27,191 nucleotides of DNA from a virus. This document shows, piece by piece, positions 3,414-27,191 of the stretch; position 1 is the first letter of the stretch; every line of letters starts with the position of its first letter. Position numbers and translations under genes: made by a program. Location of the stretch: IMG/VR virus record IMGVR_UViG_3300009158_002314, positions 1 through 27,191 of that record, one strand, 5' to 3'. The notes below the pieces were generated by a model. That model had not been told where the DNA came from. It saw only the letters and a program-made list of their open reading frames with translations, and did no database searches.

Positions 3414-4541
3414 ATGGAATTTACAGCTGGATTTACGTTAGTTGGAGGTGGGACTTTTGTTGCGCCACCGCCCCCTCGTCCCGCCTTATATATGTGGGCA
3501 TGGGGCTCTAATTACAAAGGAAAACTTGGTTTAGGCGATACTAATAATAGATCTAGTCCAACACAGGTGGGTGCGTTGACCGATTGGGAAAATGTATATG
3601 CGGGCGGAGGTACGGCCACTGCTGGATTAAAAACTAATGGTACTTTGTGGACATGGGGAAACAATGCGAACAACGGCAGGCTTGGACATGGTGACACCAT
3701 AGATAGATCTAGTCCTACGCAAGTAGGGACATTGACTAATTGGGCATCTATGGGTGTAGGCAACGGGCACATGATCGCAATAAAGACAGACGGTACATTG
3801 TGGGCATGGGGATATAATTCGGATTACGGGAATTTAGGTTTAGGCAATCTTACAAATTATTCAAGTCCAAAACAAGTTGGAGCATTAACTGCATGGTCCA
3901 AAATAAGTACAGGATATAATAATAACCTAGCAATTAAAACAGATGGAACTATGTGGGCATGGGGACATAATACAAACGGCAAATTAGGATTGGGCGATAC
4001 CAATAATAGATCTAGTCCAACACAGGTAGGTGCATTAACTACGTGGTCATCTATAAATGCAGGAGAAGACCTTGCGGCCGCAATAAAAACTGACGGCACC
4101 CTATGGATGTGGGGACAGAATAACTCTGGACAATTGGGATTAGGAAATACTACGTATTACTCAAGTCCAAAACAAGTCGGCGCTGATACAAATTGGGCAA
4201 GTGCATCTGTTGATGCATTTCAGTCCATTGCAATTAAAACCAACGGCACATTATGGGCATGGGGCGCCAATGGTGGAGGACAGCTTGGTTTAGGTAATAC
4301 CATAAGTAGATCTAGTCCTGTACAGGTTGGTGCATTGACTACGTGGTCAAGTATTGGGGCAGGTGGTTATCATACCCAGGCTATTAAAACGGATGGTACA
4401 TTATGGGCATGGGGTTACAATTTTGATGGAATATTGGGACTAGGTAATGCTACATATTATTCAAGCCCCAAACAAGTTGGCGCATTAACCACCTGGTCAA
4501 AAATTTCGGTAGGTTACTTATATAATCTGGCACTCGGTTAA
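3414..4541 (+). CDS. RCC1-repeat beta-propeller protein (probable virion/adhesion protein)
   Basis: This 375-residue protein is built almost wholly of seven RCC1-type repeats of about 50 residues. Each has the core (L/M)W.WG.N..G.LGLG...SSP.QVG followed by a ..W..I..G....AIKTDGT strand. Seven such repeats form a seven-bladed propeller in RCC1 and BLIP-II. There is no signal peptide. The N-terminus (GGGTFVAPPPPRP) is a short glycine/proline arm that could anchor the propeller to another virion protein. Repeats are near-identical at DNA level, so the array expanded recently. The ribosome site is AAGGA, eight bases before the ATG, behind a late-promoter-like box. Propellers of this kind are binding platforms, and the position among likely structural genes suggests a tail-fibre or capsid decoration, but no family with a known phage function is recognised. 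Confidence 0.8.
   Translation: MEFTAGFTLVGGGTFVAPPPPRPALYMWAWGSNYKGKLGLGDTNNRSSPTQVGALTDWENVYAGGGTATAGLKTNGTLWTWGNNANNGRLGHGDTIDRSSPTQVGTLTNWASMGVGNGHMIAIKTDGTLWAWGYNSDYGNLGLGNLTNYSSPKQVGALTAWSKISTGYNNNLAIKTDGTMWAWGHNTNGKLGLGDTNNRSSPTQVGALTTWSSINAGEDLAAAIKTDGTLWMWGQNNSGQLGLGNTTYYSSPKQVGADTNWASASVDAFQSIAIKTNGTLWAWGANGGGQLGLGNTISRSSPVQVGALTTWSSIGAGGYHTQAIKTDGTLWAWGYNFDGILGLGNATYYSSPKQVGALTTWSKISVGYLYNLALG
3491..4541 (+). repeat. RCC1 repeat array with about 300-bp higher-order unit
   Basis: Seven blades occur in two sequence types: type A encodes RSSP(T/V)QVG (tagatctagtcc at 3548, 3704, 4007, 4307) and type B encodes YSSPKQVG (near 3857, 4159, 4459). The order is A-A-B-A-B-A-B, so the last six blades are three copies of an A+B pair with a spacing of about 300 bp. 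This points to duplication of blade pairs by recombination. Confidence 0.75.
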
Positions 4542-9061: not shown

Positions 9062-9610
9062 ATGGCTGAAGAAAAGAAACCATTATCACGTTCCGAGCGT
9101 GAAGCACAAATTAAAGATAAAGCCGGTTGGTTAATTACTGTACTTGCTGCTCTTTTAGCTATTAATACTTATATTGCTTCCGGTAATAGTTCTAAAGTAT
9201 TAAACAATACTATTAAAGCAAACGATACTTGGGCATTCTTTCAGGCAAAGTCGATTAAACAAACTCTTGCTGAAATGGCTAGAGACGATGCGGTTGAAAG
9301 AAAACAATTTGAAAAGGCAGATAAGTTAACTGCTAAAATTAATAGATACGAGAGCGAGCCTGCAACGGGTGAAGGCAAGAAAGAACTAATGGCTAAGGCC
9401 CGCGCTTTAGAAACTGAGCGTGATGAGATACGCAAGTCTGGACCATGGATGACCTTTGCTGGTTCTGGATTTCAAATTGCTATTGTGTTATTGTCAGCTA
9501 GTATCTTGGCTGTAGCACCCGCATTATATATTGCAAGTATTGCGGTTGGCGCATTATCTGCGTTGTTAATGAGTCAAGGCATATGGTTGTGGATACCAAT
9601 AGTGCTATAA
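9062..9610 (+). CDS. DUF4337-like membrane protein
   Basis: The 182 residues follow the plan of the bacterial DUF4337 family: a first transmembrane helix (WLITVLAALLAINTYIA, about 24-40), then the signature ANDTWAFFQAKSIKQTLAEMA (about 54-74), a charged coiled-coil middle and one or two C-terminal transmembrane helices (FQIAIVLLSASILAVAPALYIA, and a final GALSALLMSQG stretch). The family is found mostly in proteobacteria and has no known function. AAGGAGA precedes the ATG. The 3' end overlaps the LpxH-like gene by 28 bases. Together with the previous two genes it makes a run of small membrane proteins. Its presence beside lipid-A-type and glycosyltransferase genes suggests host-derived envelope genes. 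I am fairly confident of the family, not of the role. Confidence 0.7.
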   Translation: MAEEKKPLSRSEREAQIKDKAGWLITVLAALLAINTYIASGNSSKVLNNTIKANDTWAFFQAKSIKQTLAEMARDDAVERKQFEKADKLTAKINRYESEPATGEGKKELMAKARALETERDEIRKSGPWMTFAGSGFQIAIVLLSASILAVAPALYIASIAVGALSALLMSQGIWLWIPIVL

Positions 9611-10377
9611 CTCAACAAAAAAAGTATCGCAGCATTTTTATTAGTGATGTGCATCTTGGCACAAAAGATAGTCAAGCTGGCAAATTAAATAACTTTTTAA
9701 AACATAATAGTTGCGATACTTTATATCTAATTGGTGACATTATAGACGCTTGGAGAATACAACAAAATAAATGGCGTTGGAAACAAAGTCATACCAATGT
9801 TGTGCGCCGTGTTTTAGGTCATGCCAAACGTGGTACTAGAGTAGTATACATAGCAGGAAATCATGATGAGTTTCTAAGACCAATGATACCATATGGTTTT
9901 AGTTTTGGTCTAGTAGAAATTCACAATCAAATAGAACACATTGGCGCTGACGGCAAGCGCTATTTAGTAACACACGGAGACTTGTTTGATGGTATAACAA
10001 GATTAGCACCGTGGATATCATTTTTAGGAGATAAGGCATATGACTTCATTCTTTCGCTCAATAGCAAGTTCAATTGGATACGCCATCGTATGGGTTTTGG
10101 GTACTTTAGCCTTAGCAAATTCCTTAAGCACAAAGTCAAAAAGGCAGTAGACTTTATATTTCAGTTTGAAAAGAATCTTGCAGGATATTGTAAGAAGCGC
10201 GGATATGATGGTGTTATCTGTGGACACATACACCATGCCGAAATAAAAGATATAGATGGCGTCACATACATGAATGACGGTGATTGGGTCGAATCATGCA
10301 CCGCGCTTGTAGAACATCATGATGGTCGATGGGAAATAATAACTTGGACTAAGGAAAAAGATGATGAACCTCAGTAA
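9583..10377 (+). CDS. LpxH-like metallophosphoesterase (UDP-2,3-diacylglucosamine pyrophosphatase family)
   Basis: This 264-residue calcineurin-like phosphoesterase is of the COG2908/LpxH type. In bacteria LpxH hydrolyses UDP-2,3-diacylglucosamine to lipid X in lipid A synthesis, at the inner membrane face. The metal-binding motifs are complete: SDVHLG (D22, H24), GDIIDAW (D52), GNHDE (N93, H94), THGD and CGHIHH. The C-terminal segment NDGDWVESCTALVEH is a strong marker of the proteobacterial LpxH-like group, which runs about 25 residues longer than E. coli LpxH (240). The gene starts inside the previous one and its end overlaps the glycosyltransferase start by 17 bases, so the three are coupled. 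This reads as an auxiliary metabolic gene from a Gram-negative host. Whether it acts on the lipid A precursor or another pyrophosphate substrate cannot be read from sequence. Confidence 0.85.
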   Translation: MVVDTNSAITQQKKYRSIFISDVHLGTKDSQAGKLNNFLKHNSCDTLYLIGDIIDAWRIQQNKWRWKQSHTNVVRRVLGHAKRGTRVVYIAGNHDEFLRPMIPYGFSFGLVEIHNQIEHIGADGKRYLVTHGDLFDGITRLAPWISFLGDKAYDFILSLNSKFNWIRHRMGFGYFSLSKFLKHKVKKAVDFIFQFEKNLAGYCKKRGYDGVICGHIHHAEIKDIDGVTYMNDGDWVESCTALVEHHDGRWEIITWTKEKDDEPQ

Positions 10378-11074
10378 TAAAATTACTATCGTGGTGCCTT
10401 GTAAGAATGAGGAAAACTATATTCATCATTTGTTAGATGCTTTGCGCCTACAAGACATTAGCGATACAAGAATCATTATTGCCGATTGCTCTACTGATAA
10501 TACTAGACAAGTAATAAAAGATAATAGTTCTTCATTGAATGTCGAAATTATTGAAGGTGGCCCAGTTTCATTTGCCAAGAATAACGGAGCAAGATTAGTT
10601 ACTACTCCATATATTTTATTCATTGATGCAGATGTTCGGTTCTTTAAAAACACAGTAATTAAAGATGCCGTTAACGAAATTGTGTCCAATGACTTAGATC
10701 TAATTGGGCTAAACATTAAATGTTATGACAAAGACTTACGTGCAATAATTGGATTTACAATTTTTAATATTATTAATCACATATTAAAATTCTTTTCCCC
10801 ATTTGCAATCGGGGCATTTATGTTGACTCGCAGAGATAGATTTGAAGAATATGGCGGGTTCCCTGAAAAGACAGTAACATCTGAAGATTACTTTCTATCA
10901 AGAATGTATAGCCCAAAGAAGTTTAAAATTGCAAATCACTATTTTGGACAAGATTCCCGTAGGTTTAAAAAAATGGGATACTTTGGAATGGGTGCATACT
11001 TAATAAAGAACTTCATTAATCGTAACAACAAAACATATTGGGACAATCTAGATTCATCTAAGTACTGGAACTGA
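10361..11074 (+). CDS. Family 2 glycosyltransferase
   Basis: A 237-residue GT-A enzyme of the GT2 type transfers a sugar from a nucleotide donor to a glycan or lipid acceptor. It has the N-terminal ITIVVPCKNEENYI motif, the ADCSTDNT segment, the metal-binding D-x-D (FIDADVRFF, about residues 88-96), and a SEDYFLSRM stretch in place of the usual ED acceptor motif. A hydrophobic helix (about 127-155, IIGFTIFNIINHILKFF then FAIGAFMLTRR) may contact the membrane, as in lipid-linked glycosyltransferases. The start codon overlaps the end of the LpxH-like gene. The pairing suggests modification of host lipid A/LPS, which is inference. Donor and acceptor are unknown. Confidence 0.85.
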   Translation: MMNLSNKITIVVPCKNEENYIHHLLDALRLQDISDTRIIIADCSTDNTRQVIKDNSSSLNVEIIEGGPVSFAKNNGARLVTTPYILFIDADVRFFKNTVIKDAVNEIVSNDLDLIGLNIKCYDKDLRAIIGFTIFNIINHILKFFSPFAIGAFMLTRRDRFEEYGGFPEKTVTSEDYFLSRMYSPKKFKIANHYFGQDSRRFKKMGYFGMGAYLIKNFINRNNKTYWDNLDSSKYWN

Positions 11075-11155: not shown

Positions 11156-11800
11156 ATGAGATTCGAAGATCTAGCAGTAAGATTAGTAGCCGTTGAAGCT
11201 AAATTAGCAACACTAACAGGTATTAGTGCTAATAGCGATATTGCAACCGCATTAGAAGAACTAGATGCGCGTTTAACATTAGTAGAAGTTACCGTTGGCC
11301 ATTTAGTTGCTGTTCAAACACAAGAACATATTGAAGCGATTATTGCTGCGCCAGCAGATGCTGCTCCTGTAGCAGTTGAAGATGTGGTGGCATTATCAGC
11401 AAGTGCAGATGTCCCAGCAGCCGCTGACATTGTAGCTGATGTAGTTAATGCTCAGGTTGAAACAGTTGCAGTTGAGAATACAGAAGTTGCTGCGATTATA
11501 GCTGCAGCAGTAGCCGCAGTTGTAGCTGCAGACCCAGAAGTTGTTACAGATCCAGTAGCAATTACTGCAGCAATTACAGAAGCAGTTGCAGAAATGCCAG
11601 CTCCAGCACCAGAAGTAGCAGCAGAAGCAGGTGCCGCAGTTGCTGAAATTATTGCCGCAGCTACAGGTGAAGTTGTTGCTCCAGAAGTACATGCAGAAAT
11701 TGCTGCAGCTGTTGCAGCAAAAGCAGATCCAGCGTTAGATGCTATCGAAGAGCGTTTGAATGTTGCTGAAGCAAAGGTTAATAGCTTGTTGGGAAAGTAA
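11156..11800 (+). CDS. Ala/Val-rich low-complexity protein, 214 aa
   Basis: The product starts with a short heptad-like helix (RLVAVEAKLATL, then LDARLTLVEVTVGHL) and ends with a similar one (IEERLNVAEAKVNSLLGK). Between them, residues of about 60-190 are nearly all Ala, Val, Glu, Ile and Pro (for example EVAAIIAAAVAAVVAADPEV). There are no cysteines and few aromatics. An AAGGAG site six bases before the ATG, a late-promoter-like box upstream and a strong terminator downstream mark it as a well expressed single-gene unit. Coiled-coil ends around an extended helix suggest an oligomeric rod or scaffold. It matches no family that I can name. The opposite strand carries long open frames only because GC-rich alanine codons lack stops. 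Confidence 0.7.
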   Translation: MRFEDLAVRLVAVEAKLATLTGISANSDIATALEELDARLTLVEVTVGHLVAVQTQEHIEAIIAAPADAAPVAVEDVVALSASADVPAAADIVADVVNAQVETVAVENTEVAAIIAAAVAAVVAADPEVVTDPVAITAAITEAVAEMPAPAPEVAAEAGAAVAEIIAAATGEVVAPEVHAEIAAAVAAKADPALDAIEERLNVAEAKVNSLLGK

Positions 11801-11883: not shown

Positions 11884-11904
11884 AGGGCCGCAAGGCCCTT
11901 TTTT
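11884..11904 (+). terminator. Intrinsic terminator closing the plus-strand block
   Basis: AGGGCC, a GCAA tetraloop and GGCCCT form a six-pair GC-rich hairpin (11884-11899) followed at once by TTTTTT (11899-11904). The run of T is only on the plus strand, so it terminates the Ala/Val-rich gene. A second hairpin GCTGG...CCAGC (11860-11879) sits just upstream. The terminator overlaps the last two bases of the convergent S11 peptidase gene. Confidence 0.88.
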
Positions 11905-12622
11905 AATCTGTTTGATATTCCTGAAGTGCGATAAATTCTGCTTCGGGAATTCTAGTCTTACCGTTTTTACTTCCAAGAACAACAACGATGCGTCTGCCGA
12001 TATCAGTATCAAGCATCATAACGATACAACCACCGGCAGCATTTGTTGTTCCAGTTTTACTCACAATAAAATTATGTCTCTTTCCAATAATAGGATTTGT
12101 ATTATTAAAAAAGAACCACTTCTTTTTAATTTGAATTTTTACTTGCGATGTTTTACTTGCTTCTACAATATCAGTATAGTAGCTTGCAGAAAGAACTAGT
12201 TCTAATAAATCTCTAGCTGTACTAATATTCATTGGGCTTAATCCAGACGCTTCTACAAATTTAGTATTAGGCATATTAATTGCCATAGCTTTTAAATTCA
12301 TATCTCGTATACAACTAGGTTTGCCGCCAGGATAGTTGTCGCACAATATAATAGCTGATTCGTTACTGGACTTTACAAGTGCCAACTGTATGTGTTGCTC
12401 TCTTGTAAATTTGCCAAGCATTTGTTGCGGATCTTGGCCTGAATCAATTACGACCATTGCAGTCATAAGTTTAGTAATACTGGCGATTGATCTCGATTCA
12501 TCAATACTTTCGCCTTCAATAATTTTTCCATTACCATTAGCAACAAGCCAAGAATGAGCAGTTACTTTCATGGAAAAGGCATTGCTTGTTATAAACAATG
12601 CCAATATCATTATATATTTCAT
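11903..12622 (-). CDS. D-Ala-D-Ala endo/carboxypeptidase, peptidase S11 (penicillin-binding protein 7 type)
   Basis: This 239-residue serine peptidase of the S11 family trims D-alanine ends or cross-bridges of peptidoglycan in the periplasm. A signal peptide covers residues 1-17 (MKYIMILALFITSNAFS). The three active-site motifs of the fold are intact: S48-I-T-K51, S85-S-N87 and K189-T-G191. The length is short, like the PbpG/PBP7 catalytic domain, without the C-terminal beta domain of DacA. The start overlaps the lipoprotein stop as ATGA. The gene lies beside a convergent terminator and downstream of a late-promoter-like box. It may help lysis, DNA entry or wall remodelling. A complete catalytic set argues that it is active. 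Confidence 0.9.
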   Translation of the reverse strand: MKYIMILALFITSNAFSMKVTAHSWLVANGNGKIIEGESIDESRSIASITKLMTAMVVIDSGQDPQQMLGKFTREQHIQLALVKSSNESAIILCDNYPGGKPSCIRDMNLKAMAINMPNTKFVEASGLSPMNISTARDLLELVLSASYYTDIVEASKTSQVKIQIKKKWFFFNNTNPIIGKRHNFIVSKTGTTNAAGGCIVMMLDTDIGRRIVVVLGSKNGKTRIPEAEFIALQEYQTD

Positions 12623-18965: not shown

Positions 18966-19298
18966 TTAAATTTGGGGATAGTCCGTCACATAATCTTCAA
19001 TTGGTTCCCGATGCATCATCGGCTCTTCTACTTCAATGTCGTGTACATATAAAAGCATCAATGCATAGTGTAACACCTTTAGCAGGTCTTGTCTATTCCT
19101 TCCTGCTTTTTTTCCATATCTTTGAACATATTTCATAACATTGCCGGCGGTAAAGCCTACGCCATGTCCATTGTCAATAATAAATTCAGTTGCCTGAAAT
19201 CTATTCATTGAATAATGTTGTCCATATGTTGCATCAATATATTCTTGGAACTCTTTAATAAGTTCACCTTCGTTGTATTTGTAATCTACTTTCTCCAC
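18966..19298 (-). CDS. DUF3310-like small protein, 110 aa
   Basis: Residues of about 33-84 (QATEFIIDNGHGVGFTAGNVMKYVQRYGKKAGRNRQDLLKVLHYALMLL) fit DUF3310, a small phage domain with the F..GN..KY..R...K....DL.KA..YL pattern and often called nucleotide kinase-like without proof. The start is GTG at 19298, with GGAG seven bases upstream (ATGGAGTATTCCCGTG). It overlaps the end of the glycosyltransferase gene by 13 bases. No ATG lies nearer than residue 31, which would cut into the domain. Confidence 0.72.
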   Translation of the reverse strand: MEKVDYKYNEGELIKEFQEYIDATYGQHYSMNRFQATEFIIDNGHGVGFTAGNVMKYVQRYGKKAGRNRQDLLKVLHYALMLLYVHDIEVEEPMMHREPIEDYVTDYPQI

Positions 19299-20008
19299 GG
19301 GAATACTCCATTATATTTTTGTTTCATAATCTCATTGCCTTTCAAAAAGAATTGGCCTTGAACCGAATCTGCTCTATTACCTGCTCGATAATTTACAGTA
19401 TACTTTCCTGTCACCTCACACTCTATTTTATTATCTTTAAGCGTATAAGTCAATGCTCTATCAACCTCAGGTTGATCGTCTGGATGCCTTGCACGTCTAA
19501 ACCAAATAGGACTTAATTGCAATGCTAATGGTTTACTAAAAAAGAAACAATTAACATCTACAAAATAATCTCTGATAACCGATTCCCAATTACATAGGCT
19601 TTCACAATCATCATTACAAATGAACTTACCTTCATTGTCTACAATCTTTCTTAAGGTCGCCGCCCATTGGTTATCGCCAACCGTTTTTATTAGGGATTCT
19701 ACGTGTTCTGGTTCTAACCAATTATCCTCATCCAGGTAACAAATATAATCGCCCTTTGCAATATGAGTAAACGCGCCATAAATTTTATGACCATTATATT
19801 GATCGACCCCTGTTGCATAAGGTAAGACAACTAAGTCTGCATTGTGGTTTTCTTGCTGCAAGATTTGCGCCACCTTGTCTAGATGATGCTCGCCATCTAC
19901 AACCACAAGATGTTGAACATCAAGATATGTTTGGGATGCAACTGATCTAATATTGTCTCTTAGATATTCTGAACCTGTTGTTGCTGTAATTACTGTCACC
20001 TTAGTCAT
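19286..20008 (-). CDS. Family 2-type glycosyltransferase
   Basis: This 240-residue GT-A enzyme has the N-terminal VTVITATTGSEYLRDNIRSVASQTY, a VVDGEHH segment and the metal-binding motif CYLDEDNW (about residues 93-100). A shorter C-terminal part has a RARHPDDQPEVDRAL stretch. The motif order is that of the GT2 family. It should transfer a sugar to a glycan acceptor. Acceptor and donor are unknown. It overlaps the methyltransferase gene upstream by eight bases and is coupled in the sugar operon. GGAG lies about ten bases before the ATG. Confidence 0.8.
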   Translation of the reverse strand: MTKVTVITATTGSEYLRDNIRSVASQTYLDVQHLVVVDGEHHLDKVAQILQQENHNADLVVLPYATGVDQYNGHKIYGAFTHIAKGDYICYLDEDNWLEPEHVESLIKTVGDNQWAATLRKIVDNEGKFICNDDCESLCNWESVIRDYFVDVNCFFFSKPLALQLSPIWFRRARHPDDQPEVDRALTYTLKDNKIECEVTGKYTVNYRAGNRADSVQGQFFLKGNEIMKQKYNGVFPWRK

Positions 20009-20681
20009 TTGCAGCTTTGCTCCATTGATATGCGTAATCTGCTTGTTGTATATTTTTATGTGCGAAATCTTTTCTCGCTATAACAGTTCTAACCATAACA
20101 TATACTGGTCTTGGATGTTCTATTTCCAATCGTTGTCCGGGCTCAGGCGGATCCAATTCATATGTCCATCCCAAGTCTGCGGTATCGCCCACAAATACTT
20201 GTGTGTCTTTATACCCATTCTTTTCAGAATACAATGCAAAGAATAATTCAGGAGAGAATTGCCAGAATCCATGTCCGCAATTATTATTTGCAGGCAGTGC
20301 ATGTAAAATTTGGCCACCTACTTTACATAATCTAGTTATGTTTTTAAATGCTTCATTAATATTAAATACGTGTTCTAATGTTCCACTATCAATAACAGTA
20401 TCATATTCTTCAGGGCGATTCAAAGGTAAATTCATATCATGAATAATGTTTGCGCCCTCATAATCAGAATAATCTATTGAATCAACCTTTGTTGCTCCAA
20501 AATATTCCATTAACATATCGTCACAATATTGACTAGGTTTAAAATCTTTTATGTTTAAAAAATGTTCAACATTATGTTTTTGCACATGAAGACCTTGTCT
20601 ACCTGCAGTAATTGTTTTACCAAACGGGCCGTGCTGACTTACGTTGACTAAAAACTGCATTTCCTGATTACCAATTCCCAT
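20001..20681 (-). CDS. SAM-dependent methyltransferase-like protein
   Basis: The 226-residue product has features of a class I methyltransferase: ATKVDSIDYSDYEGANIIHD (acidic loop for the SAM ribose), then YDTVIDSGTLEHVFNINEAFKNI (motif IV-like, about 95-115) and LCKVGGQILHALPA (post-motif). The glycine-rich motif I is not clear (YFGATKVDSID in its place). Proteins of this type in sugar clusters often methylate sugars or glycan ends. AAGGA lies eight bases before the ATG. Confident for the fold, less so for activity. Confidence 0.7.
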   Translation of the reverse strand: MGIGNQEMQFLVNVSQHGPFGKTITAGRQGLHVQKHNVEHFLNIKDFKPSQYCDDMLMEYFGATKVDSIDYSDYEGANIIHDMNLPLNRPEEYDTVIDSGTLEHVFNINEAFKNITRLCKVGGQILHALPANNNCGHGFWQFSPELFFALYSEKNGYKDTQVFVGDTADLGWTYELDPPEPGQRLEIEHPRPVYVMVRTVIARKDFAHKNIQQADYAYQWSKAAND

Positions 20682-20695
20682 AATATTTCCTTATT

Positions 20696-21391
20696 TTATT
20701 CGTGTAATTCACCATTGTTAAACTTATACTTTTTAGATACAGATTTTGGATCAAACTCCGCACATTCTTTTAATGTAGGAGGATACATTGGCATATCGTG
20801 TTCGTCGTATCCATTACCACAAAAATCATATGGATTAACTAATAGTGCTCTTGTTTCTCCAAACCAGCCTTCATTCATAGAATGCACTAATGCACTATCT
20901 TGAACCAAAGGCCAAATTACATCACGCAAGAATATTTGATCACCCACATAATAATTAAGTTGTTCTGTATACTTGTTCATCAAATTAAATACAGGCGTAC
21001 TAAATTTACCCTTATAACCAAATGCGCAACCTATAATAGGAAATTCAAAATGTGCATCGTGGTCTCGGAATGTGTGGAACTTTTTATCAGAATTTATCCA
21101 GTCATTAACTGCTTTTTGTTCTCGTATAGTAATTCTACTATCTGAGTCACGTACAAGCACAATGTTATTTTCATTCTCAAACATTGCTCGAAACCGCCAG
21201 TACATTCCGTAGCTACCATCATTAACTTCTATGATATTTGCATCTGCTAAATTTGAGAATTTATTTTTGTCATCTGTATAAATTCTAAATTCCCAATCGG
21301 AGTAATATTTTTTTGATAATTCGTATTGACGGTTTGCGCCAACAATATATCTTGGGTCATCACCCCAAACACTTATGGATATAATTTTCAT
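20696..21391 (-). CDS. Putative glycosyltransferase (DxD-containing), 231 aa
   Basis: The product begins MKIISISVWGDDPRYIVGANRQYELSKKYY and has WEFRIYTDD and NNIVLVRDSDSRIT segments. The DSDSR is a likely DxD metal site at about residue 85, and the overall plan is that of small GT-A transferases in capsule/LPS loci. A WRFRAMF motif precedes it and a FHTFRDHDAHFEFPIIGCAFG segment follows. The ATG at 21391 lies two bases after the previous stop; a TTG six bases upstream is possible. Acceptor and donor are unknown. Confidence 0.6.
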   Translation of the reverse strand: MKIISISVWGDDPRYIVGANRQYELSKKYYSDWEFRIYTDDKNKFSNLADANIIEVNDGSYGMYWRFRAMFENENNIVLVRDSDSRITIREQKAVNDWINSDKKFHTFRDHDAHFEFPIIGCAFGYKGKFSTPVFNLMNKYTEQLNYYVGDQIFLRDVIWPLVQDSALVHSMNEGWFGETRALLVNPYDFCGNGYDEHDMPMYPPTLKECAEFDPKSVSKKYKFNNGELHE

Positions 21392-21393
21392 AA

Positions 21394-22089
21394 TCAATAA
21401 TTAATTGTTTCAAAATGATTTGGTATTTCTATAGGCAATCCGCCTTGGTGAAATTTTCTAGTGTTGTGATAAACAACCTTGTTTGTCTTTAATAATCCTA
21501 AATGTGACAATAAAGATATTAAAGGATATAGTCCACTGTTTATAAAATGGACTTCTTTCGCATTGCATATTGTGTGTATATAATCTAACACATCTGGAGT
21601 ATCAGATTTATCTACTATAAACTTAGGAGATGCGGAATTAATCTGTAATTCAAAATTACCAGCAGTGCTTTCTGTATGAACAAAGATATAATCATTTCCT
21701 AATTTAGAAACAGTCTTATTATAAAATTTAATAGACTGTGATAGGTCTAACGGCATTCTAAATTTTGTATTTTTATCCTCGAGTGTCAACCCATACTGCG
21801 CATAAAAAGATCGTTCAAAGTGCATTGGATCTGTGTGCTCAAATCCAACCTTTATAACGGATATTTCTGAAATTGTACCAAAGTCAAAAATATCATGCGG
21901 TTCTTGTTTAACTTCAAATATTTTAATCTTGGGATAGTCTGCATATAGATGTGTCGCAGTTGGCACTACGTAATCTTTAGTAGCTAACCATACTTCGTCA
22001 AAGTCTTTGGCAATGTGATGAACTAATCCATTACAAGTAAACAGATCACCCATCCCAAGATGGTGGTATATAATTGCTCGATTTACCAT
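21394..22089 (-). CDS. Putative GT-B type glycosyltransferase/heptosyltransferase-like protein
   Basis: The 231 residues begin RAIIYHHLGMGDLFTCNGLVHHIAKDFDEVWLATKDY, the GxGD...NG.V...A....V..... plan of ADP-heptose:LPS heptosyltransferase-like (GT9) proteins. A C-terminal VHTESTAGNFELQINS and VLDYIHTICNAKEVHFINSGLYPLISLL region follows, as in their donor-binding half. It is shorter than typical GT9 (about 320), so a diverged or reduced form is likely. The start overlaps the RmlB-like stop by seven bases. Family call is tentative. Confidence 0.5.
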   Translation of the reverse strand: MVNRAIIYHHLGMGDLFTCNGLVHHIAKDFDEVWLATKDYVVPTATHLYADYPKIKIFEVKQEPHDIFDFGTISEISVIKVGFEHTDPMHFERSFYAQYGLTLEDKNTKFRMPLDLSQSIKFYNKTVSKLGNDYIFVHTESTAGNFELQINSASPKFIVDKSDTPDVLDYIHTICNAKEVHFINSGLYPLISLLSHLGLLKTNKVVYHNTRKFHQGGLPIEIPNHFETINY

Positions 22090-23030
22090 ATGAAATGTTC
22101 TTTGTAATATCGTACAATTTCTTTTAATCGAGTATCAAAATTAGCTACTGGTCTCCATCCAAGCGATTTTAATTTAGAATCATCTATTGCATATCTAACA
22201 TCTTGGCCTTGTCTCTTTTCAGAGAAATCCATATGATCTAAGTAATCAGATTTATCAATGCCATATGCTTTTAATATTTTATTAGCAACAACAATATTTT
22301 GTTCTTCGTAATTGCCAGAAATATTATATGTTTCGTTAATCTTGCCAGATTCAATAATTGTTAAGACTGCAGATGCAGTATCACTAACGTGCAACCATGT
22401 TCTTGTGGGTGTGCCGTTATCGTGCATTAAAATTGGTCTGTCCAACATCAAATGCTTAACTGCTTTGGGTATAAATTTTTCAACATATTGTCCTATACCG
22501 TAATTGTTAGTGGGTCTAACAATTATATAAGGTACATCATATGTTCTTGCCCAGGCTGTAACTAACATATCCGCAGCAGCCTTTGTTGCTGAGTAAGGGT
22601 TACTGGGTTTAAGAAGATCTGTTTCAGTATGAAACCCTTCTTCTATATCTCCGTAGACTTCGTCTGTACTAAAATGCAATAATACTGGCCTTCTTGCTTT
22701 TGGTAATGCTTTTATAAGTTCTAATAACTTATGCACTCCATTGATGTTACTCTGTAAGAATACATCTGAGCTGGCAATACTATTATCTACGTGTGTTTCT
22801 GCCGCAGTATTAATGATGTAATCGCAATCATGAATGCGCTCAATGTCATTAATATCTGATTCTAAAAATTTAAATTTTAGAGACTTTTCTAATTCTGGCA
22901 GGAAATTTAAATTGCTTGCGTATGTCTTTTTATCAATACCAAATACATAGTATCCTGCATCAAGACATTTCTTTGTGACATGGTAACCAATAAAACCAAG
23001 ACAACCGGTTACATAAACTACTTTTTTCAT
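22083..23030 (-). CDS. dTDP-glucose 4,6-dehydratase-like enzyme (RmlB type)
   Basis: This 315-residue extended SDR enzyme converts a nucleotide-glucose to the 4-keto-6-deoxy sugar in RmlB. It has the NAD motif TGCLGFIG (8-15), an IDKKTYASNLNFL segment as in RmlB (I D.LTYAGN...), the STDEVYG catalytic Asp-Glu pair (about 121-127), YSATK (about 146-150) and RPTNNYGIGQYVEKFIPKAV. All catalytic residues appear present. It is near the RmlB length of about 340-360 but slightly short. Both ends overlap neighbours (ATGA upstream). It gives the common entry step to deoxysugars. Whether it uses dTDP- or CDP-glucose is not visible. Confidence 0.85.
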   Translation of the reverse strand: MKKVVYVTGCLGFIGYHVTKKCLDAGYYVFGIDKKTYASNLNFLPELEKSLKFKFLESDINDIERIHDCDYIINTAAETHVDNSIASSDVFLQSNINGVHKLLELIKALPKARRPVLLHFSTDEVYGDIEEGFHTETDLLKPSNPYSATKAAADMLVTAWARTYDVPYIIVRPTNNYGIGQYVEKFIPKAVKHLMLDRPILMHDNGTPTRTWLHVSDTASAVLTIIESGKINETYNISGNYEEQNIVVANKILKAYGIDKSDYLDHMDFSEKRQGQDVRYAIDDSKLKSLGWRPVANFDTRLKEIVRYYKEHFIW

Positions 23031-23806
23031 ATATAAACTTTCAATCCATGGGCTAAGCCATATAATCTAAGACCAGCCCCTTGCAGTTTCATTAGATTAT
23101 TACTATCTCCGGTATAATGTTTATCGGAGTATGACTCTACTACAAAATTCTTCTCAATATTATTTATATCGCAAAAGTAATCTAAAAACTCGCTAAGCAA
23201 CATTTTTTGTCCATAAACACAATCTATATCATAACTATAGTATCGTTCGTTACCTGTTTGTGTTTCATTCGCAATATATTCTACAACATTTCCAAAATCT
23301 TGAATTGAAAAATAATCAAAATACTTATCTGCAATTTTTAGAGGCTCAGTTGCTGATAGAAACTTTTTTAACAATCTAAAATCAGGTTCGCCTTTTCCAA
23401 AACAACCATATAATCTAAGTGTGAAAAATTTATTGTTGTTTTTTATAATATTATGAATTGTTCTTTTAGAAAATGCATATGCAGAACTGTCTTCTGATTT
23501 TTCAATTCCAGAACCTATATTAATGTATTTAGTATACAAATGTTGATTGGTATAAAAATTATAGAACATTGCAAGGTTATCTGCTACATCTGTTGCGCTA
23601 TTTTCTTTAACCTTTTCTTTACCGCCAAAAGTTAAACAATTAACAACTATATCAACTTGCAGTGTTTCTAATAATGTAGTAACTGTAGTATTATCCAATA
23701 AGTCAAGTGTGCCTTTGTATAAAGGATATACTTCGTGCTTTTTAGCTAAATGCTCAGTCAAATATGTACCAACAAATCCGCCGGCACCTACAATTAAAAT
23801 TTTCAT
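23027..23806 (-). CDS. NAD-dependent epimerase/reductase (SDR)
   Basis: This 259-residue extended SDR protein has the nucleotide motif GAGGFVG (7-13), a DIVVNC strand, and the Y-x-x-x-K pair in SAYAFSKR (about 109-116). It resembles dTDP-4-dehydrorhamnose reductases or NDP-sugar 4-reductases (the YLTEHL.KKHEVYPL plan). In a cluster that makes a 4-keto sugar, a reductase is needed to finish it; this is the best candidate. It overlaps the ThDP gene and the RmlB-like gene, both by ATGA. Substrate is unknown. Confidence 0.78.
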   Translation of the reverse strand: MKILIVGAGGFVGTYLTEHLAKKHEVYPLYKGTLDLLDNTTVTTLLETLQVDIVVNCLTFGGKEKVKENSATDVADNLAMFYNFYTNQHLYTKYINIGSGIEKSEDSSAYAFSKRTIHNIIKNNNKFFTLRLYGCFGKGEPDFRLLKKFLSATEPLKIADKYFDYFSIQDFGNVVEYIANETQTGNERYYSYDIDCVYGQKMLLSEFLDYFCDINNIEKNFVVESYSDKHYTGDSNNLMKLQGAGLRLYGLAHGLKVYI

Positions 23807-24543
23807 AGTTTTACAATCATTTCACTTTCTAATTCTTCATCGCTTAGAAACGGCATCATGTCGTGTAGGCCACATTGTTTACCATTCTTTAATGCCTGTG
23901 CTGGCAATATTTCTTGTTCTAAAAGACATTGGCAATCTATAATTGCAGGGCCTTCTTTAGATAACATTTCGCCCATTCTATCTAAATCTTTTGCAAGTCT
24001 AACATCCTCATATCCTATACCAAAAGATGCGGCAATATTTTTAAATGAAGGAAACCATAATCCAGTATCAGAACTTGTGCCATATACGCGACCATCAAAA
24101 TATTTTGTCTGTGTATTTTTAATACTTAAATATCCATTATTATTCAGTATCACAAATTTAATATTAAGATTATGTTGTTTAACAACTGCAAGTTCTTGTA
24201 TATTACTCATAAAACTGCCGTCGCCCGTAATAGCAATAACGGGTTGTTTACTAGCTAAGCTAACTCCAATTGCACCAGGCAATGCCCATCCCATATCAGC
24301 TTGTGCAGGACTAAAGATAAGTCTTTGTCCCTTTTTAGCATTCAACGCAACAGGGCCAGCATAGCTAATACTACCAGCATCCCCCATTAAAATATCATTA
24401 GCAGTACTATGCTTATTAATTGCATCAAGAACAGCATAGATGTTTACTCGATATGTGTCGTTATCTGCTCTATATTCATTTTGCATTACAGGCCACTTGT
24501 GTCGCCACCATGCACATTTTTCAACCCATTCGGCTCTTGTCAT
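23803..24543 (-). CDS. Acetolactate-synthase-like ThDP enzyme, C-terminal half (PP domain)
   Basis: This 246-residue piece matches the C-terminal pyrophosphate-binding domain of the acetolactate synthase/pyruvate decarboxylase family. The ThDP motif is GDGS at 107-110 with NNNG at 134-137. The SISYAGPVALNA and ADMGWALPGAIGVSLA segments are typical. It starts EWVEKCAWWRHKWP, the usual linker between the central and PP domains, so it is the natural continuation of the next gene upstream (24540-25547), with ATGA overlap. Together they total about 580 residues, the normal length of one enzyme. It may work as a heteromer of two chains or be made as a fusion by frameshifting. Confidence 0.85.
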   Translation of the reverse strand: MTRAEWVEKCAWWRHKWPVMQNEYRADNDTYRVNIYAVLDAINKHSTANDILMGDAGSISYAGPVALNAKKGQRLIFSPAQADMGWALPGAIGVSLASKQPVIAITGDGSFMSNIQELAVVKQHNLNIKFVILNNNGYLSIKNTQTKYFDGRVYGTSSDTGLWFPSFKNIAASFGIGYEDVRLAKDLDRMGEMLSKEGPAIIDCQCLLEQEILPAQALKNGKQCGLHDMMPFLSDEELESEMIVKL

Positions 24544-25547
24544 AACATTGCTCCAAAAAATTCATTCAATGATGTGTTATATGTTTCATCTATATGAACA
24601 ATACCTTTATCGAATTCATCTGCATCTATATCTACCATAATTTTATAACTGTGTGGGCTAAATTGTTTTGGATCATATCCAATTACACTAGCACCCAAAC
24701 TACAACCTAAAATTAACAACAGGTCAGCATTCTGCATAGCAAAGTTTCCTGCTCGACTACCTTTAATGCCTATGGCACCCACATTCAAAGGATGATAGGC
24801 ATCATTATAATCTCTTGCACCATATGTACTAACGTATGGAATCTTATATGATTCAATGAATTTATTAAAGTTATATACAGCATCTGCTTGTCTAATACCA
24901 TAACCTGCAAGAACAATTGGTCTTTCAGACTTTTCAATCGTTGCCTTTATATGAGAAACTTCAATAGGTCTTTTACGTTGACCAGCATTATATTCTACAT
25001 AACTTGTAGGCATCTTTGCTGTTTGAACATCACTAGGAATATCTAACCAAACGGGGCCTGGTCTATCACTTTTAGCTATATGTATTGCTAAAGATAATGC
25101 GAAAGGAACATCTTCGGGTCTAGTTACAAATTGACTAAACTTTGTTATTGATTTATATGTATCCACCACATGATGTTCTTGTACCCCATACTTACGAATG
25201 TTTATCTTTCTCATATTGTTAATATGGCCTGAGCAAGTATTTGTTCTAACATTGCCAGATATAAACAATACAGGAGTCGAATCCTGCCATGCGTTTAATA
25301 CTGATGTTGCGCAATTTGTTCCAGCACACCCCGTTGTAGGATTAACAACCGCGATGTTACCTGTAAATTTTGCTTCGCCAATTGCAGCATGCCCAGCGCC
25401 TTGTTCATGATGGTAACAAATATAATTGATATTTTTGTTTTTAATAAATCCATCATTCAGGCCACTAGCACCACCGCCCATTAAACCATGTACATTTTTA
25501 ATTCCTGCTGAATACAAATATTCGGCAATCCAATCACAAACTCTCAT
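24540..25547 (-). CDS. Acetolactate-synthase-like ThDP enzyme, N-terminal half
   Basis: These 335 residues carry the pyrimidine-binding and central domains of an acetolactate synthase-like enzyme. The catalytic glutamate that activates ThDP is E48 in YHHEQGAGHAA. VVNPTTGCAGTNCATSVLNAWQDSTPVLFISG is the usual GPG-like region, and the central domain ends LLLILGCSLG...IMVDIDADEF. The frame opens at a TTG, but the ATG at 25547 with AAGG upstream is preferred. The stop overlaps the C-terminal half gene by ATGA. In the sugar cluster it may transfer an acetyl group from pyruvate to a keto sugar, as YerE does in yersiniose synthesis. That role is inference; plain acetolactate chemistry is possible. 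Confidence 0.82.
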   Translation of the reverse strand: MRVCDWIAEYLYSAGIKNVHGLMGGGASGLNDGFIKNKNINYICYHHEQGAGHAAIGEAKFTGNIAVVNPTTGCAGTNCATSVLNAWQDSTPVLFISGNVRTNTCSGHINNMRKINIRKYGVQEHHVVDTYKSITKFSQFVTRPEDVPFALSLAIHIAKSDRPGPVWLDIPSDVQTAKMPTSYVEYNAGQRKRPIEVSHIKATIEKSERPIVLAGYGIRQADAVYNFNKFIESYKIPYVSTYGARDYNDAYHPLNVGAIGIKGSRAGNFAMQNADLLLILGCSLGASVIGYDPKQFSPHSYKIMVDIDADEFDKGIVHIDETYNTSLNEFFGAML

Positions 25548-25548
25548 T

Positions 25549-26091
25549 TTATGCCTTTCCAAAATCTGGAAACTCTACAAGTATGGTACTAATACCATCT
25601 GTTCTATTATATGATTTTTGATATGCGGGCATGATATCCTCAATTGTTTTTAATTCTACGACATCAATTGTTTTGCACATCAATCTAAATGCTTCTGCAA
25701 AGTTACCTTTATGTTGATCTTGAGGATCAATAGGTGTCTCTGATCCTACTGCAACTCTAATAATAACTTTAGGGCTACATTTACCGTCACTCATTAATCG
25801 CATTTTATCCAAATGGTTAATAATTTGATCTGTTGCAGCTAATAAAAAATTCCAACGAGGAACTACACTAACGGGAACAATTCCGTTAAGTGCTAGGCCA
25901 GTACTAACACCTATTTGCAAATTTTCTGCTACAGGAAATTCCATTTTCTTATTAGCAGGAACTTCTGTTAGACTTTCATAGCAACCTGTGCCGGCATAAC
26001 AAACTGCTTGACCAAGTATCATTACATTATCCTGATCTGCAATCCAATTCATTGCTTGCTTTAATTCAGCATTGTATTTTGCGGTAGTCAT
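25549..26091 (-). CDS. ThDP-dependent E1 beta-like subunit (transketolase-type pyrimidine domain)
   Basis: The 180-residue product has the pyrimidine domain of 2-oxo acid dehydrogenase E1 beta or transketolase: VMILGQAVCYAGTGCYESL, then a FPVAENLQIGVSTGLALNGIVPV segment with the catalytic E at about residue 56. The PRWNFLLAATDQIINHLDKMR segment is like the E1 beta F..FA.DQI.N...K. Only the pyrimidine domain is present; the C-terminal transketolase domain (about 130 residues in E1 beta) is missing. It starts one base overlapping the E1 alpha-like stop (TAATG), so the pair should form an alpha-beta complex. Confidence 0.8.
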   Translation of the reverse strand: MTTAKYNAELKQAMNWIADQDNVMILGQAVCYAGTGCYESLTEVPANKKMEFPVAENLQIGVSTGLALNGIVPVSVVPRWNFLLAATDQIINHLDKMRLMSDGKCSPKVIIRVAVGSETPIDPQDQHKGNFAEAFRLMCKTIDVVELKTIEDIMPAYQKSYNRTDGISTILVEFPDFGKA

Positions 26092-26714
26092 TAAAATTGA
26101 ACCCTTACACCTGCTCCTGCATGAGGATACTTATCATTTTTATATTTGTAGTATATTAAGTGTTCACTTACAAACTTATCGACGTTTTGCTCAGGCAAAT
26201 ACCATTTGTGATTTCCCCATACTGTTTCAGTAGGAGTCATTACACTTAATTCGTTATCTTCTACAATAAAAGTAATAGGCAAATCTTGGGCAACCGCATA
26301 TTTGTATGCCTCTGCCCATGCACCCGTCTCTGCACTCATATCTCCAACCCAACACCAAACCTTTTCAGAGGTTCCTTTTAGTTTAGCTGCAAGCGCAATG
26401 CCTGTTGCTATACTAGGAATACCGCCCACAATACTAGAACAAATAAATTTGTATTCAGGCATATTCAAAATCATGCTTTTGCCTTTTACAATTTGTTCTT
26501 TTAATATCTCAGGTGGAATGCCTTTTAACAATGCCTGATAATGGTTGCGCCAAGTGCAACATATCCAATCTTTTTCAGTATCAATAAATTTAAATACTTG
26601 GCGAATTTGTTTTTCATTCCCCGAGGATAAGTGAATCGGAGCTCTAATCTTTGCTTGATTAAATAATTCTCCGATTTCTGTTTCAAAATCTATTAATTCT
26701 TGATTGGATATCAT
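26091..26714 (-). CDS. ThDP-dependent E1 alpha-like subunit
   Basis: This 207-residue protein matches the E1 alpha (2-oxo acid dehydrogenase) PP domain. The TWRNHYQALLKGIPPE motif corresponds to YRDHG..L..G..P. The ThDP/Mg motif is G124-D-M...N154 in VGDMSAETGAWAEAYKYAVAQ and FIVEDNELS. It is shorter than a standard E1 alpha (about 320-360), lacking much of the regulatory part. The phage has no visible E2/E3, so the pair probably works as a stand-alone transferase, for example two-carbon transfer in sugar synthesis as proposed for AviB1/AviB2. Starts by ATGA overlap with the aminotransferase-family gene. Confidence 0.8.
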   Translation of the reverse strand: MISNQELIDFETEIGELFNQAKIRAPIHLSSGNEKQIRQVFKFIDTEKDWICCTWRNHYQALLKGIPPEILKEQIVKGKSMILNMPEYKFICSSIVGGIPSIATGIALAAKLKGTSEKVWCWVGDMSAETGAWAEAYKYAVAQDLPITFIVEDNELSVMTPTETVWGNHKWYLPEQNVDKFVSEHLIYYKYKNDKYPHAGAGVRVQF

Positions 26715-27191
26715 TTAAATAAACTCATAAAACTGTCTACAGTTTCTCCGATGTATGCAATTTGTTCTGGAGTAATAACAGGACTTGTACCATGGAAATA
26801 AGTATTAGTCATTGTCATTGTAGCAACTGGGAAATTATCTCTTGCATCTGCAGGATTCATTAAATGAGAATATGCAGGTTGCAACATAATATTGCCGGCA
26901 AAATAAGGTCTTGTCTGAATTAAATTCTCTTCCAAATAGTCTACAATGTCACTGCGCTTGAAAGGTGAACCTGCACGAATTGTTAATGGGAACGCAAACC
27001 AACTTGGGTCTGAGTATTCTTGTGCTCTTGGTAGATGGAAATACTCCTCGTATTTGCTGTAGATATCAAACAACAAACCATAATTACGACGACGAAGTGC
27101 ATGAATTGTCTCCAGTTTTTCTAATTGAACTAATCCCATTGCACCTTGCAATTCAATAGGCTTAAGGTTATATCCAATCTCATCATAAACA
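26711..27191 (-). CDS. DegT/RfbH-type PLP/PMP sugar enzyme, C-terminal part (5' end outside window)
   Basis: Residues read in from the window edge as VYDEIGYNLKPIELQGAMGLVQLEKL, the conserved GYN.K.(T/I)(E/D)(L/M)Q.A.GL.QL.KL motif of DegT/DnrJ/EryC1 enzymes. The rest is WFAFPLTI, VDYLEENLIQTRPYFAGNIMLQPAY and a TNTYFHGTSPVIT..QI.YI end, which fits the RfbH/E1 (CDP-4-keto-6-deoxyglucose 3-dehydrase) subgroup better than plain aminotransferases. The active-site residue (His in dehydrases, Lys in aminotransferases) lies upstream of the window, so the reaction cannot be settled here. The stop overlaps the E1 alpha-like start by ATGA. Confidence 0.82.
   Translation of the reverse strand, partial: VYDEIGYNLKPIELQGAMGLVQLEKLETIHALRRRNYGLLFDIYSKYEEYFHLPRAQEYSDPSWFAFPLTIRAGSPFKRSDIVDYLEENLIQTRPYFAGNIMLQPAYSHLMNPADARDNFPVATMTMTNTYFHGTSPVITPEQIAYIGETVDSFMSLFK

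Follow-up and report, generated by a model that had tools for sequence, protein, structure and literature searches.

A metallophosphoesterase and GT2 glycosyltransferase gene pair of T4-like phages as a predicted PlcP-type lipid-remodelling cassette

The window, as we call the whole 27,191-base virus record IMGVR_UViG_3300009158_002314 analysed here, carries T4-like replication genes and a pair of overlapping genes encoding a metallophosphoesterase and a glycosyltransferase of family 2 (GT2) (Table 1). According to our analysis this pair is quite probably a phage-encoded lipid-remodelling cassette, in which a phospholipase C of the PlcP type and the GT2 would turn phospholipid into diacylglycerol (DAG) and then into glycolipid, with phosphate freed for phage DNA. 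An earlier note on this DNA had seen here an LpxH-like lipid A gene coupled to a glycosyltransferase (GT) and lying outside the normal phage core; an envelope-lipid gene standing with a GT outside that core is indeed what we find, and it is the assignment to LpxH and lipid A that has to be given up.

The full metal site noticed earlier is present: its seven ligands (D22, H24, D52, N93, H131, H215 and H217) are invariant in alignments of 11 and of 62 rows, and H94, with the GNHD motif, is likewise invariant in the 62-row alignment. The signature text NDGDWVESCTALVEH, which the same note had claimed for the phosphoesterase, is found in the window protein, which also fits the PlcP signature, GNH(D/E) with the metallophosphoesterase motif GHxH. 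The 17-base overlap with the GT2 gene was also read correctly, and its presence suggests translational coupling of both genes. The GT2 shows, besides its main domain, a weak match to PF13506 (GT21) that is over the cut-off.

Table 1. Gene pair and adjoining gene in the window
Feature	Position	Strand	Basis
PlcP-type metallophosphoesterase (predicted phospholipase C), 264 aa	9583..10377	+	PF00149 2.5e-11; metal ligands and GNHD; tree; failed LpxH models
GT2-family glycosyltransferase, 237 aa, predicted to glycosylate DAG	10361..11074	+	Glycos_transf_2 PF00535 2.3e-19; plcP adjacency; slot exchange with Agt-like GT4
Overlap of both genes, 17 nt	10361..10377	+	read from sequence
DUF4337 protein gene, overlaps plcP start by 28 nt	9062..9610	+	PF14235 7.5e-29

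Family of the phosphoesterase

Scanned with two LpxH models, the window phosphoesterase reached 35.2 bits for TIGR01854 (cut-off 190.35) and 45.9 bits for NF003743 (cut-off 134). An LpxH search of 12 bacterial genomes with close relatives returned matches above the cut-off in eight (202-344 bits), one more at 183 bits, and a second class of nine low matches at 34-48 bits, which was the only class found in the genomes G010, G011 and G012, whose loci were chosen as alphaproteobacterial; a direct scan of three bacterial proteins from the low class gave 43-44 bits. The window protein belongs to this low-scoring class, like the second copy in bacteria that possess a true LpxH.

The Arg that follows the metal-binding Asn (GNRD; Arg80 in Pseudomonas aeruginosa LpxH) is said to be unique to LpxH (PMC5016852). 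GNRD stands in nine of nine fetched LpxH loci and GNHD in the window, and GNH was found in all 80 close viral relatives, in 79 of the 80 farther ones (one unread), in 4 of 4 named-phage relatives and in 80 of 80 bacterial relatives. As the LpxH rows of our tree were chosen by the pattern GNRD with GHTH, the residue count over all nine loci, where either GNRD or GNHD was allowed, is the fairer one. The GNH class has been named LpxH2, and according to work cited in PMC3087551 its P. aeruginosa member cannot take over from LpxH in E. coli. LpxH2 shares with the phage protein GNHD in place of GNRD and the size class; in PMC3087551 and PMC5016852 it is a name by similarity only, with the substrate unknown, and it is probably the same family as PlcP. 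The name 'LpxH-like' is, from the sequence features described, correct at superfamily level only, and the form is PlcP/LpxH2.

The tree (IQ-TREE quick mode, 153 rows, SH-aLRT only, with a long outgroup) was built after dropping sequences with stops or shorter than 225 aa, near-duplicates and one of the nine LpxH loci (L250, a pattern miss); of four named-phage rows, L082 and L084 are left. The eight LpxH rows separate (100, starred), the 78 viral rows form a single clade (97, starred) within a surrounding group of 66 bacterial genes and one divergent named-phage row (L084), and the window sits in a viral clade of 40 rows (99, starred). Two bacterial rows, L178 (titled a Klebsiella pneumoniae metagenome-assembled genome) and L236 (Solirubrobacterales), fall inside beta- and alphaproteobacterial groups of the tree, and because of this placement their titles are doubtful: they are probably wrong, or the bins contaminated.

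The identification as PlcP goes through genes of plcP-agt operons, characterised PlcP proteins not being among the tree rows; to the fetched bacterial plcP-operon genes the window phosphoesterase is 47-57% identical. An open reading frame (ORF) with FPSxTDTFG lies at most 3 kb downstream in 42 of the 80 nearest bacterial loci, and in 37 of these 42 it is accompanied by GRVAxEK; among the 38 loci lacking such an ORF several contigs end early. Both are motifs of the DAG-glycosylating Agt (PMC8231724). Looser clustering yielded two groups of downstream ORFs, seen in 48 and 28 loci, and we prefer the motif count because the representative of the second group resembles a shifted frame. The phylogeny proposed as a check in the earlier note thus groups the phosphoesterase with enzymes of another known substrate, its nearest cellular relatives being, on this sequence comparison, the plcP-agt operon genes.

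In bacteria PlcP is the phospholipase C on which lipid remodelling depends during phosphate stress, and the DAG that it yields goes to the glycosyltransferase Agt (PMC4796936, PMC8528852, PMC9239053). Such PlcP-Agt remodelling is described for Sinorhizobium, Phaeobacter MED193, SAR11 HTCC7211 and the P. aeruginosa pair PA3219-PA3218 (PMC4796936, PMC8528852), where the PlcP role is assigned to PA3219 and its partner is Agt1 (PMC8528852), and a plcP gene beside a lipid glycosyltransferase gene is common without being universal (PMC4796936). The phage pair resembles the bacterial system in the type of metallophosphoesterase and in a GT directly downstream on the same strand; it differs in that its carriers are T4-like and very large phages, in that the window GT is a GT2 and not a GT4, and apparently in having no clear PhoB box. 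The Sinorhizobium plcP gene presumably carries the tag SMc00171.

The exchangeable glycosyltransferase slot

The slot downstream of plcP was compared in 160 viral loci, of which 84 hold a GT2 of the window type, 54 an Agt-like GT4 and none both, the remainder being 10 loci cut within 500 bases and 12 with neither GT. The GT start lies within 260 nt of plcP in 84 of 84 GT2 and in 53 of 54 GT4 loci. Even among the 80 closest viral loci (PlcP at least 87% identical) there are 70 with GT2, 9 with GT4 and 1 truncated, and on the PlcP tree the GT type requires 12 changes, at least five of them forced by starred branches. For the GT4 of one phage locus (L046), with matches in 299 genomes, 18 of the 30 best bacterial matches adjoin plcP. 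A scan based on GT2 returned 530 stretches, 527 of them confirmed, and among 79 newly fetched GT2 loci plcP is directly upstream in 77, the other two being contig ends with fewer than 75 bases upstream.

It is mainly because two unrelated GT families occupy one slot next to an almost unchanged enzyme that we assign DAG as the probable acceptor of the GT2. The window enzyme, being a GT2, is outside the Agt sequence family (GT4, GT-B); its action may nevertheless be that of an Agt. Its good structure model (pLDDT 84.7) retrieved a Pyrobaculum mannosyltransferase first, followed in the top rows by AvpGT, WrtF and the teichoic acid enzymes TarS and TarP, a fold search which leaves the acceptor unfixed.

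In 49 viral loci (for instance L012:5753-5919) the space between plcP and the GT contains a small ORF (35 aa or more) whose end is close to where the GT begins. Many of these are about 56 aa long with a hydrophobic start and two Cys (at least two Cys in 37 of 49); the ORF occurs with GT2 as well as with GT4, is absent from the window, and in L022 and L026 resembles reads of the plcP end instead.

The phosphoesterase itself is widespread in viruses. Relatives are encoded in at least 600 IMG/VR stretches matching our peptide patterns, the best 80 being 87-100% identical; for fetching we took the 80 best on each side, out of at least 600 candidates from viruses and at least 591 from bacteria. Compared with 18 viral plcP genes, the window gene has 90-96% amino acid identity, with dN/dS of 0.023-0.051 in 12 of the 18 and saturated synonymous sites in the other 6. 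The number of relatives and the low dN/dS argue against a chance gene: in phages plcP is an old gene under strong purifying selection. Recent capture from a host was considered and rejected because the viral rows are one clade and the synonymous sites are heavily changed or saturated.

Lipid remodelling, phosphate and competing explanations

In the mechanism that we propose, the PlcP-type metal-dependent phospholipase C would remove the phosphate-containing head group from phospholipids of the host membrane, leaving DAG, to which the GT2 from the overlapping gene would transfer a sugar from a nucleotide sugar. The resulting glycosyl-DAG, a bilayer lipid free of phosphorus, would be kept in the membrane, and phosphate could be released for phage DNA in phosphate-poor bacterioplankton without the membrane collapsing. 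We infer both that the phage phosphoesterase cleaves phospholipids and that the benefit of the cassette is phosphate. By rough inference a 162-kb genome, at two phosphates for each base pair, holds about 0.3 million, and contigs of 345-525 kb hold 0.7-1 million; with such a demand, the phospholipid of the membrane could matter as a source.

Phosphate genes such as pstS are carried by cyanophages, and plcP sometimes stands in the same gene run; both would serve phage-borne phosphate supply, the plcP cassette differing in that it would draw on the host's own membrane and not on uptake. Among 25 whole viral records, PF12849 (PstS type) was found in six, in five of them within about 1.5 kb of plcP or the pair and in L097 far away, and the pstS neighbours include GT2, GT4 and, in Pelagibacter phage Mosig, neither GT. 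PstS queries matched in 24 of 243 viral stretches, a count that includes near-duplicates and overlapping fetches of one contig, the stretches being short by design; in 15 of them pstS lies upstream of plcP on the same strand at a distance of at most 240 nt. PhoB boxes were found upstream of bacterial plcP, our control, in 27.5% against 1.3% in shuffles. A promoter and terminator scan gave 8 promoter-like sites where 11.4 were expected.

Several observations weigh against this interpretation. Upstream of phage plcP, PhoB boxes (8 of 80 and 5 of 77, against 2.8% and 2.9% in shuffles) are not clearly enriched; pstS was sought and not found in the window contig and in 19 of the 25 phage records; and plcP stands without either GT in the 12 loci mentioned, which include relatives of Mosig. 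We know of no enzyme assay for any phage member. The modest phosphoesterase model (pLDDT 77.3) ranks LpxH structures first in its fold search (TM about 0.53), and none of the 50 rows listed is a structure named PlcP; the search shows the superfamily and not the substrate, with PlcP and LpxH not separated. In the viral GT4s the Agt motifs are partly altered, 30 of 54 and 6 of 54 passing the two regular expressions. Bacterial relatives of the GT2 are few and distant (7 in 398 genomes, 27-34% identity), and no plcP was found in their seven fetched stretches, for which reason the acceptor assignment depends on the exchange of GT types in the slot. The DAG glycosyltransferases known so far are members of GT4, GT21 and GT28 (PMC8231724), among which a GT2 would be unusual.

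That the phosphoesterase is nevertheless a true LpxH, performing a lipid A step which alters host lipopolysaccharide during infection, we regard as extremely unlikely, and we rejected this identity. Its weak similarity to LpxH profiles and chains, the shared superfamily and metal site, the top rank of LpxH structures in the fold search and the public names of phage relatives (UDP-2,3-diacylglucosamine diphosphatase or hydrolase) have to be set against scores far under both curated cut-offs, the His that replaces the catalytic Arg specific for LpxH, the placement apart from LpxH in the tree, the distinct LpxH that several bacteria with the same form possess, and a GT partner that swaps with Agt-like GT4. 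Metallophosphoesterases are functionally broad, and one from a mycobacteriophage evades immunity (PMC12287305), so the phosphoesterase might be imagined to act on another substrate, for instance a nucleotide defence signal, and the GT2 to modify surface sugars or DNA separately; the identity to bacterial plcP-operon genes and the GT partner that is nearly always adjacent and replaceable by an Agt relative make it very unlikely.

A less improbable, if still doubtful, alternative accepts the PlcP-type phospholipase C with its GT2 and sees their use in envelope change (superinfection exclusion, membrane charge or help in lysis) and not in phosphate. Glycolipids do alter envelope properties, protection from polymyxin is reported for P. 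aeruginosa (PMC8528852), and the window holds a long sugar-gene operon as well; however, the fact that pstS stands near plcP in several phages, with GT2 as well as with GT4, points to phosphate, and the bacterial plcP-agt is a phosphate-starvation system (PMC4796936).

Returning to lipid remodelling for phosphate, we lean towards a broader proposal, that an exchangeable (pstS)-plcP-GT cassette is found in T4-like and very large phages which are widespread in aquatic habitats, that the GT2s, tied to phage plcP in our data, constitute a new class of DAG glycosyltransferases repeatedly swapped with the bacterial-type GT4 Agt, and that infected cells strip phosphate from their own membranes for phage DNA. 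If this holds, phages exert direct control over the phosphate economy of bacterioplankton membranes, a step absent from the literature we found; a viral gene that is very common would lose a misleading lipid A label, a new class of DAG glycosyltransferases would be gained, and phosphate limitation, membrane lipids and phage yield would be linked in a way open to test. In the titles and abstract starts of the open-access literature searched we found no report of a phage-encoded plcP, which does not imply its absence from print, and the words phage and virus do not occur in Sebastian et al. Some of the viral genes annotated as lpxH may really be this plcP gene; lpxH (K03269) is listed once in a Lake Baikal viral metatranscriptome (PMC9611531). 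A marine survey of virus-encoded metabolic genes dropped contigs bearing glycosyltransferases (PMC11360552), a filter that would remove the plcP-GT cassette from that survey.

Phage context and neighbouring genes

The window contig is a T4-like phage, with a gp43-type DNA polymerase (phrog_262, 1054 bits), RegA, clamp loader subunits and a sliding clamp. The nearest named records of its gp43 protein are Synechococcus phages, and at about 52% identity they are too distant to fix the host. Among the 25 whole viral records, gp23 occurs in 10, a gp43-type polymerase in 14 (the phrog_262 model also gives matches in cellular controls) and at least one of both in 16, the GT4 carriers L046, L120, L134 and L097 being among these marker-positive records. 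Neither marker was found in seven other GT4 carriers (L036, L042, L051, L053, L075, L076 and L077), records which may be fragments. Large plcP carriers include contigs of 345, 349 and 525 kb; the largest (L034) has two gp43-type polymerase genes in opposite orientation near both contig ends, which may be a duplication, a terminal repeat or an assembly artefact.

The DUF4337 gene is possibly an operon member; we do not count it as a core part because it is present in 30 of the 80 best viral loci and is often not adjacent to plcP. Directly after the GT2 lies an Ala/Val-rich ORF of 214 aa (11156-11800) with no family match and with relatives in 15 of the 80 closest viral loci. The window also encodes an RCC1-repeat protein (3414-4541) adjoining the DNA polymerase gene, a D-alanyl-D-alanine carboxypeptidase of the S11 family (11903-12622) and, at 19286-27151, the long run of sugar genes, with GT2, methyltransferase-like, nucleotide-sugar epimerase-like and aminotransferase-like members.
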